Positions 42,496 through 44,586 of a DNA stretch of 64,000 bases are shown one piece after another (the stretch's first letter is position 1; the number at the start of each line of letters is the position of its first letter). Source of the DNA: Curtobacterium sp. SGAir0471. Lineage in GTDB: Bacteria; Actinomycetota; Actinomycetes; Actinomycetales; Microbacteriaceae. The notes beneath the pieces are model-generated. The model was not told where the DNA came from, did no database searches, and worked only from the letters and a program-made list of their open reading frames with translations. Position numbers and translations under genes: made by a program. The stretch covers positions 868,001 through 932,000 of the forward strand of contig NZ_CP027869.1 in NCBI RefSeq assembly GCF_005490985.1, in the 5' to 3' direction.

Positions 42496-44586
42496 ATGAC
42501 CGACACCACGCCTCACGGCCAGGGCGACGAGAACCGCCCCCAGGACACCGACCACCGGGCCGCAGCCGAGGACGCCTCGCGCGACACCTCCGGCGAGGGC
42601 ACGTCGACGCAGGACGTCTCCGGACACCCCGCCGACCGGCACGCGGACCACGACCACACCGATGTGATCGACCATGCCCGGGCCGGCGAGACCGACGTCA
42701 TCCCGACGGGGACCGACAACACGACGGACCGCTACACGGCGCCGTACCCGACCATCGACGGTGACAGCAGCGGGTCCGGGCAGAAGGCCAGCCCGTACGG
42801 CTCGGACAACGCGCACCACGCTCAGTCGACGACCGGCGCCTCCGGCCAGGGTCAGTACGGCCAGAGCCAGTACGGCCACGACCAGTACGGCCAGAGCCAG
42901 TACGGCCAGAGCCAGTACGGCCAGGACCAGAGCCAGTACGGTCAGAGCCAGTACGGCCAGAGCCAGTACGGCCAGGACAAGAGCCAGTACGGCCAGGACA
43001 AGAGCCAGTACGGCCAGGACCAGAGCCAGTACGGCCAGAGCCAGTACGGCCAGAACCAGAACCAGAGCCAGTACGGCCAGGACCAGAGCCAGTACGGCCA
43101 GAGCCAGTACGGCCAGAGCCAGTACGGCCAGAACCAGGACCAGTACGGCCAGGGCCAGTACGGCCGCCCCCGCTACGGCGAGTACGCCCAGGGGACGTCG
43201 CAGTACGGCAGCCAGCACGACTCGCAGTACGCCGCTCCGCAGAGCGCCTCCTACCCCGGCTCCGCCCAGGCGCCCTCGTCGGCCAGCGCCTTCGGCGACG
43301 TCGACGGCTCGAACCAGCGCAACGGCCACTACTTCGGCGGTGCCGCCGCCGGCGCAGCGACCGGGGCCGCAGCGGGCACTGCCACCAGCACGGACGGCAA
43401 GCAGGGCCGCAACAAGCTGGTCCTGCCGATCGTCGCGGGGCTCGTGCTCGCCGGCCTGGTCGGTGGCGGCGCGGGCTGGGCGGCGGGTGCGTCCCAGTCC
43501 GGCACGACCGTGATCGGCTCGGGCTCGTCGCAGAGCGGCGGGAACCTCACGGTCAACGACTACAACAACGCCACCGTCGTGACCGCCGTCGCCGCGCAGG
43601 CCACGCCGTCGGTCGTGACGATCAACGTGTCCTCCGGCTCCGCGGGCGGCACCGGTTCCGGCGTCTTCTTCACGAAGGACGGCTACATCGTCACGAACAC
43701 CCACGTGGTGACCCTCGACGGTGACAGCTCGAACGGCACCATCACGGTCACGACGTCCGACGGCAGGATCTACCCGGCGAAGCTCGTCGGCACCGACCCG
43801 ACGGTGGACCTCGCGGTGATCAAGATCGATGCGACCGGCACCAAGCCGATCTCGTTCGCGGACTCGTCCGACCTCAACGTCGGCGACACCGCGGTCGCGA
43901 TCGGTGCACCGCTCGGCCTGTCGAACACCGTCACCGACGGCATCGTCTCGACCCTCAACCGCAGCATCCAGGTCGCCTCGAGCGCCCCGAACCAGGGCGG
44001 CGACTCGAACGAGGGCGGGAACGGCGACAGCCCCTTCGAGTTCCCGGGCAACGGAGGATCCTCCACCTCGACGACGGTCTCGCTGCCGGTGATCCAGACC
44101 GACGCGTCGATCAACCCCGGCAACTCGGGTGGCGCCCTGCTCGACTCGAAGGGCAAGTTGATCGGCATCAACGTCGCCATCGCGAGCGCCGGCAGCTCGC
44201 AGTCGTCGGACGCGCAGTCCGGCAGCATCGGAGTCGGGTTCGCCATCCCGTCGAACCTGGTGGAGCGTGTCGCGAACGAGATCCGCGAGAACGGCTCCGC
44301 CTCGCACGGCCTGCTCGGCGCCACGGTCGGTGACGCGTCCGAGGACGCGAACGCGACCCAGACGGGAGCGCTCATCAAGTCGGTGTCCTCCGGTGGAGCG
44401 GCAGCGGCCGCCGGCCTGGAGAAGGGCGACGTCGTGACGAAGATCGGGTCGGCCTCGGTGGCGGACGCCACCGACCTGACCGCGCAGGTCCGCTTCTTCG
44501 CCGGTGGTGCGAAGACGACGATCACCTACATCCGCGACGGTCAGACGCGCGAAGCCGACGTCACGCTCGGGACGTACAAGAGCTGA
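42496..44586 (+). CDS. Membrane-anchored HtrA/DegP-type serine protease with QYG-repeat domain
   Basis: 696 residues. Order: acidic/His-rich start (1-115), a QYG-repeat low-complexity domain (about 117-242) with some 19 Q-Y-G units, an Ala/Ser linker, one transmembrane helix (about 308-333), a trypsin-like domain with H403 (TNTHVV), D438 (DLAVIK) and S544 (GNSGGALL), and a C-terminal PDZ domain (about 615-690). The helix orientation puts the protease outside and the repeat domain in the cytoplasm. Homologues (PepD/HtrA) degrade misfolded envelope proteins. GAAAGGAG lies ten bases before the ATG. A family A hairpin follows the stop. Confidence 0.92.
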   Translation: MTDTTPHGQGDENRPQDTDHRAAAEDASRDTSGEGTSTQDVSGHPADRHADHDHTDVIDHARAGETDVIPTGTDNTTDRYTAPYPTIDGDSSGSGQKASPYGSDNAHHAQSTTGASGQGQYGQSQYGHDQYGQSQYGQSQYGQDQSQYGQSQYGQSQYGQDKSQYGQDKSQYGQDQSQYGQSQYGQNQNQSQYGQDQSQYGQSQYGQSQYGQNQDQYGQGQYGRPRYGEYAQGTSQYGSQHDSQYAAPQSASYPGSAQAPSSASAFGDVDGSNQRNGHYFGGAAAGAATGAAAGTATSTDGKQGRNKLVLPIVAGLVLAGLVGGGAGWAAGASQSGTTVIGSGSSQSGGNLTVNDYNNATVVTAVAAQATPSVVTINVSSGSAGGTGSGVFFTKDGYIVTNTHVVTLDGDSSNGTITVTTSDGRIYPAKLVGTDPTVDLAVIKIDATGTKPISFADSSDLNVGDTAVAIGAPLGLSNTVTDGIVSTLNRSIQVASSAPNQGGDSNEGGNGDSPFEFPGNGGSSTSTTVSLPVIQTDASINPGNSGGALLDSKGKLIGINVAIASAGSSQSSDAQSGSIGVGFAIPSNLVERVANEIRENGSASHGLLGATVGDASEDANATQTGALIKSVSSGGAAAAAGLEKGDVVTKIGSASVADATDLTAQVRFFAGGAKTTITYIRDGQTREADVTLGTYKS
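42845..43219 (+). repeat. QYG-encoding tandem repeat in the HtrA-type gene
   Basis: Mostly 15-base units CAGTACGGCCAGAGC (Q-Y-G-Q-S) with 21-base variants inserting Q-D, D-K or N-Q. Nearly identical codons are used throughout, which suggests recent expansion by slippage or unequal exchange; copy number is likely to vary between strains. Confidence 0.95.

Follow-up and report, generated by a model that had tools for sequence, protein, structure and literature searches.

The best match of the protease described here among PDB sequences is PepD from M. tuberculosis (Rv0983; pdb 1y8t; E 3.7e-58). As set out in the available part of its description, PepD consists of an N-terminal tail, one helix, a protease domain and a PDZ domain, residues 1–101 being cytoplasmic and the helix spanning residues 102–124, and Rv1223 has a cytoplasmic domain of 175 residues (PMC3062566). 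The same part reports that PepD is regulated by MprAB and that cytoplasmic proteins co-precipitated with it, and it leaves the role of the large cytoplasmic domains in two mycobacterial HtrA proteins for further work (PMC3062566). The HtrA of C. glutamicum is also placed under MprAB in the available portion of a second report, which has no bearing on the tail (PMC12113857). In the accessible sections of two further reports, the low-complexity region of FUS (FUS-LC) contains 24 Tyr and 37 Gln in 163 residues (PMC10643395), and that of annexin A11 phase-separates (PMC6890474). No treatment of QYG tails on bacterial HtrA proteins or of the PxYGEYA motif was found in the open-licence PMC literature, which is weak evidence of absence.

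The protease of Curtobacterium sp. SGAir0471, the genome of which is one 3.53-Mb contig, has the same order of tail, helix, protease and PDZ domain. Its probable cytoplasmic domain comprises about 305 residues and carries a YG tract, in comparison to the 101 residues given for PepD in the available text (PMC3062566). Unlike PepD as described there, it has no MprAB pair among the tested flanking genes, which encode an aminotransferase, glycosyltransferases and a CDP-alcohol phosphotransferase. As a protease the protein is unremarkable; what is surprising is its selected YG core, together with a motif common to unrelated membrane proteins of the bacterial family.

The protease and the topology of its tail

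The gene lies in the window, the whole stretch of 64,000 nucleotides that was analysed, with the following features:

42479..42485, + strand: AAAGGAG, likely ribosome-binding site (read from the sequence)
42496..44586, + strand: HtrA/PepD-like (S1C) protease gene, 696 aa, ATG start (ORF, Pfam, PDB sequence match)
43411..43485, + strand: single transmembrane helix, about residues 306–330 (hydropathy)
43654..44169, + strand: trypsin-like domain, residues 387–558 (Pfam Trypsin_2, 4.5e-30)
44314..44568, + strand: PDZ domain, residues 607–691 (Pfam PDZ_2, 1.3e-12, above cut-off)

The preliminary description had recognized an HtrA-type protease, and the Pfam matches to Trypsin_2 and PDZ_2 together with PepD as the top PDB match bear this out. 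Residues H403, D438 and S544 are invariant in 30 aligned protease sequences and align with PepD 1y8t; from known HtrA motifs we take them to be the His-Asp-Ser triad. The NCBIfam cut-offs for the named HtrA equivalogs were not reached (NF050055, 204 of 800 bits; TIGR02037, 257 of 416 bits), and the protein is therefore referred to as PepD-like rather than PepD. Directly 3′ of the stop codon there is a long GC-rich inverted repeat (window 44595–44650), by eye probably a terminator.

Hydropathy places one helix in the protease, starting at about residue 306, with Lys, Arg and Lys directly before it, and no N-terminal signal peptide is apparent by eye. From the single helix, these basic residues and the topology of PepD in the available part of its description (PMC3062566), we infer a cytoplasmic QYG tract as the most likely arrangement, in agreement with its earlier placement. 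The composition of the tail suggests that it is disordered.

Variation and selection in the QYG tract

Three stretches of the tail are referred to below:

42733..42750, + strand: YTAPYP island, residues 80–85, under the strongest constraint within the tail (1 nonsynonymous to 34 synonymous changes over 29 pairs)
42853..43209, + strand: QYG tract, residues 120–238, 19 QYG (sequence, shuffles)
43291..43335, + strand: FGDVDGxxxRNGHYF island ahead of the helix, residues 266–280 (orthologue conservation, codon counts)

The tract contains exactly the 19 QYG units counted earlier ahead of the single membrane helix, where 2000 shuffles of residues 1–304 averaged 0.75 and reached 4 at most. The distance from one QYG to the next is 5, 7 or 9 codons, and once 15. 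Its DNA had been called a near-perfect 15-base tandem repeat, a claim contradicted by this mixed spacing, by a self-identity of 66.7% at lag 15 (60.2% at lag 21) and by the TRF result (period 15, 73% matches, 21% indels). TRF also reports strong tandem arrays of 53 bp (3.2 copies, 28373–28539) and 90 bp (1.8 copies, 40571–40734) in the window. AGC encodes 15 of the 16 Ser in the window copy of the tract, compared with 15 of the 68 in the rest of the gene, an excess that is a sign of recent DNA duplication. A reverse-strand ORF of 1785 aa (42361–47718) and an ORF in another forward frame (42674–43513) were both taken as by-products of the codon-biased repeat, since it is the QYG frame that bears the protease and the selection on YG.

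A strong orthologue is present in 65 of the 66 genus genomes, the window genome included; the 66th (G014) gave a weak match only and was dropped. Sixty-one of the 65 loci were extracted by a start rule requiring M-[TSI]-[DNE], so that the conserved start is partly circular, and four more were read by eye. At least three YG occur in 60 of the 61 extracted orthologues, and all four loci read by eye contain QYG units, namely L039 (start region out of frame), L083 and L084 (other starts) and L072 (truncated at the edge of a contig). The possibility raised earlier, that every other orthologue lacks the domain, is removed by its presence in 64 of the 65 orthologues read, window copy included, the exception being L086 (G002).

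Among 60 genus orthologues the tract ranges from 62 to 200 aa in length and from 10.5 to 20.7% in Tyr content. For 47 of these tracts fewer than 5 of 500 shuffles match the regularity of Tyr spacing, and the other 13 are not clearly more regular than shuffles. Length had been expected to vary between strains, and it does differ from species to species and also among records of a single species: 683 and 676 aa in two records under the name C. oceanosedimentum, and 635–658 aa with 10–12 YG in eight under the name C. flaccumfaciens (P0027, which has a later annotated start, is left out). Of the first 82 database protease records, 66 are of full length, each with three or more YG. The remaining 16, of 382–459 aa, are without the tail (P0029, P0060, P0062, P0063, P0069, P0070 and P0072–P0081); some are labelled partial, and others were probably called from a later start codon that hides the tract from annotation. 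Outside the genus the tail is present but different: of 29 order-wide loci a script could read 24, some of these cut, and the 24 contain a maximum of 3 QYG and 6 YG. Relatives across the order have disordered N-termini of other composition, and a Frigoribacterium relative (P0087) has PYGQQ units.

For the codon comparison, 58 of the 61 orthologues were arranged into 29 closest pairs and examined in DNA alignments, a strict filter retaining codons with gap-free surroundings of at least 80% identity. Under this filter the Gly of YG shows 2 nonsynonymous to 33 synonymous changes, and the other tract codons give 10:14 for Gly, 21:10 for Ser, 15:4 for Thr, 11:7 for Pro and 9:12 for Ala; tract Tyr changed in 5 of 137 codons. 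Neutral simulations aligned in the same manner returned a nonsynonymous to synonymous ratio of about 2.1 for both Gly classes, a control that covers only in part the tendency aligners may have to favour a YG-to-YG register. The two Gly classes differ with a Fisher p of 0.002 under the strict filter and of 1e-5 unfiltered, although the unfiltered contrast is smaller (YG-Gly 51:97, other Gly 86:56). Set against spacer Ser and the neutral ratio, the YG-Gly counts indicate that the Y-G core is kept by selection and that the spacers are much freer, Ala being intermediate and itself not neutral. A selected core with free spacers is the pattern expected of a sticker-and-spacer tail.

Taken as a whole over the 29 pairs, the tract stands at 838:252 (N/S 3.3) and is unconstrained overall; the head gives 456:142 and the protease 322:1513. 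Counts for the other tail islands are 3:6 for RNGHYF, 5:13 for FGDxDG and 9:9 for TDVI. YT[AT]PYP is found in 57 of the 61 extracted orthologues. As a motif common to different proteins YTAPYP was rejected, its DNA pattern occurring in only 3 of 60 family genomes, of which two are from Curtobacterium.

The overall N/S ratio, the wide length range, the AGC codons as a sign of recent duplication and the differently composed N-termini across the order would all suit a flexible tether or filler, one that grows and shrinks by replication slippage and in which the residues are irrelevant. Such a tether nevertheless seems unlikely, as the YG-Gly and Tyr codons hardly change while the Ser and Thr spacers are free.

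Composition of the tract and its likeness to FUS and annexin tails

Residues 117–241 (125 residues) include 44 Gln, 24 Gly, 21 Tyr, 16 Ser and 7 Asp, only two Arg, and no Phe, Trp, Ile, Leu, Val or Met. The proposed resemblance to FUS-like low-complexity sequences holds for composition, the tract being low in charge and rich in Tyr (17%), Gln (35%), Gly and Ser. It does not extend to homology: a search of PDB sequences up to E 10 gave one match to the tract, with an E value of 0.011, and this was not FUS. The arrangement also differs, with regular QYGQ units on a membrane protease in place of the near-even mix of Ser, Tyr, Gly and Gln in FUS. The FUS resemblance is compositional only.

When a large protein database was queried with the tract alone, 43 proteins were found, 21 of them HtrA by domain. 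The 22 others include annexin-domain, FtsZ-domain and zinc-ribbon-like membrane proteins. The annexin A7/A11-type proteins (P0122, and P0127, which is named annexin A7/11) have QYG/PYG-rich N-terminal tails and, like the protease, are membrane-associated. They carry a eukaryotic-type calcium/lipid binding domain where the protease has its helix, and the likeness is one of compositional convergence. The FtsZ-domain protein P0135 has a C-terminal QYGQ-rich linker. QYG-type tracts thus seem to arise repeatedly, and the FUS resemblance is therefore best read as convergence of composition.

A second alternative has the tract condense by self-association, as a FUS-like domain acting alone, and thereby cluster the protease. 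It would accord with the closeness in composition to FUS-LC as given in the accessible section of PMC10643395, with the regular spacing of Tyr between polar spacers, with the description of Tyr as a strong sticker in the available part of PMC12677899, and with the retrieval of P0122 and P0127 by the tract query, the A11 low-complexity region being one that phase-separates according to the part available of PMC6890474. The likeness is, however, one of composition only, Arg is scarce, Pfam finds no RNA-binding domain in the protease and the protein may be too sparse at the surface, all of which makes condensation by the tract alone quite improbable.

Tail motifs on other membrane proteins and a candidate role

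Two further features enter the comparison with other proteins:

43165..43191, + strand: RPRYGEYAQ element, residues 224–232, within the C-terminal end of the tract and followed by one QYG (orthologues, family recurrence)
14530..15486, + strand: YflT-domain two-helix protein with GPRYGE and PPQYGE in a C-terminal tail (Pfam, pattern search)

P[RQ]YGE is present in 58 of the 61 extracted orthologues, mostly as [RQ]-P-R-Y-G-E-Y-A-Q; the codons of the PxYGE hexamer stand at 13:13 over the 29 pairs, which by itself is no demonstration of strong constraint. PxYGE occurs in none of 38 other retrieved relatives (P0083–P0120), so that it is patchy in HtrA.

The PxYGEYA motif recurs beyond chance in unrelated membrane-protein groups of the bacterial family. 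Its DNA pattern gave 47 matches in 41 of 100 family genomes, compared with none for the reversed control and one for a permuted order, and in a search of the order it was found in 6 of 8 genomes of the host family and was absent from all 111 genomes of other families. A Gln variant has 12 matches in 9 of the 100 family genomes, so Glu is preferred but not absolute. Thirty of the 47 matches were read as loci: 22 are DUF6264-like, three GPDPase-membrane-like, two HtrA (the window genome and L214, from another genus), two YflT (L207 and L208) and one unassigned (L197, the tail of which resembles that of YflT by eye). As 22 of the 30 belong to one family, the independent recurrences are few. BLASTP clusters the loci into groups of 22, 5, 2 and 1, the group of five mixing HtrA and GPDPase-like proteins, presumably via low-complexity stretches. 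Pfam, run on 10 of the 30, separated the groups: YflT and HtrA score above the cut-offs, as do the 4 of 4 DUF6264-like proteins tested (PF19779), the other 18 of the 22 being assigned by cluster only, and the GPDPase-membrane-like proteins score below.

DUF6264 is an unrelated, mostly three-helix membrane protein that shares only the motif with HtrA. It has an N-terminal RPxPQYGEYA tail, mostly R-P-R-P-Q-Y-G-E-Y-A, and matches PF19779 from the first position in all four tested. The motif tails adjoin predicted helices in 29 of the 30 loci. In YflT the motif lies before both helices in L207 and L208 and after both in the window copy; with two helices, N- and C-terminal tails share one side of the membrane. 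In some motif-bearing proteins, L223 and L204 among them, YG arrays stand close to the motif.

The shorter P[RQH]YGE gave five matches in the own genome compared with two in the reversed control, all five in tails of three proteins predicted to have helices (the protease, YflT and a DUF4064-like protein), and 413 compared with 184 in the 66 genus genomes. With this moderate enrichment the motif claim rests on the longer PxYGEYA. Fifty P[RQH]YGE loci, sorted by eye and by simple words, comprise 6 HtrA, 10 YflT, 16 DUF4064-like, 4 DUF6264-like and 14 that resemble other or chance ORFs.

A search of the genome for three close TACGG gave 25 matches, compared with 8 in the reversed control, and in-frame YG clusters are found in five proteins, all with predicted helices: the protease, a Wzz/AAA_31 BY-kinase-like protein, YflT, a multi-helix protein with no Pfam match and a DUF4064-like protein. 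The YG run of L107 was judged by eye to be a shadow frame and was set aside. The multi-helix protein (L105; G000:C1:1079862 region) has two tails, the N-terminal one rich in QYGQQ and the C-terminal one containing PYG, and the DUF4064-like protein (L109; G000:C1:3348173 region), which is below the Pfam cut-off, has an N-terminal tail of PRYGE, PQYGE and QYGQQ units. The Wzz and AAA_31 protein (L087; G000:C1:507710 region) ends in a C-terminal YGYGRYGYGYGYG tail and is a candidate tyrosine kinase for YG tails. The preliminary description missed both the sharing of RPRYGEYA with unrelated membrane proteins and the YG clusters on four other membrane proteins. That a bacterial tyrosine kinase phosphorylates the tract at multiple sites, in a putative phospho-switch tuning tail interactions or protease activity, is very doubtful even with a BY-kinase-like protein that has its own YGYG tail encoded in the genome, since the Gly that follows Tyr is conserved to the same degree and not obviously needed for a kinase, and the kinase gene lies about 0.4 Mb from that of the protease.

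In the preferred reading, the tail would offer multivalent contacts through which the protease is clustered or docked with other membrane proteins, a candidate role to which the sequence evidence lends about even credence. The long tail, which its composition suggests is disordered, would lie inside and the protease and PDZ domains outside, with the QYG tract acting as a genus-wide multivalent interaction region. Its spacers and copy number would change, probably by tandem duplication, while the Tyr-Gly cores are kept. Many weak YG or Tyr contacts, together with the one RPRYGEYA site, could then position the protease at the membrane, gathered with its own copies or with other proteins bearing YG or PxYGE via a putative common cytosolic partner. 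Of the functions suggested earlier, clustering of the protease, sensing of the cytoplasmic state and septal anchoring are all plausible as candidate roles.

More tentatively, PxYGE(Y/R) and the YG arrays may form an address code of the family on cytosolic tails, namely those of HtrA, DUF6264, YflT, GPDPase-membrane-like and DUF4064-like proteins, read by one putative cytosolic hub that gathers envelope proteins, the stress protease included, into a membrane patch; the weak YG part would have been amplified on the Curtobacterium protease. Key residues, conserved islands and a shared motif of an HtrA cytoplasmic tail can be read from evolution, and the role of such domains thereby becomes testable. 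If the preferred reading is true, sticker-and-spacer logic would extend to a bacterial envelope protease.
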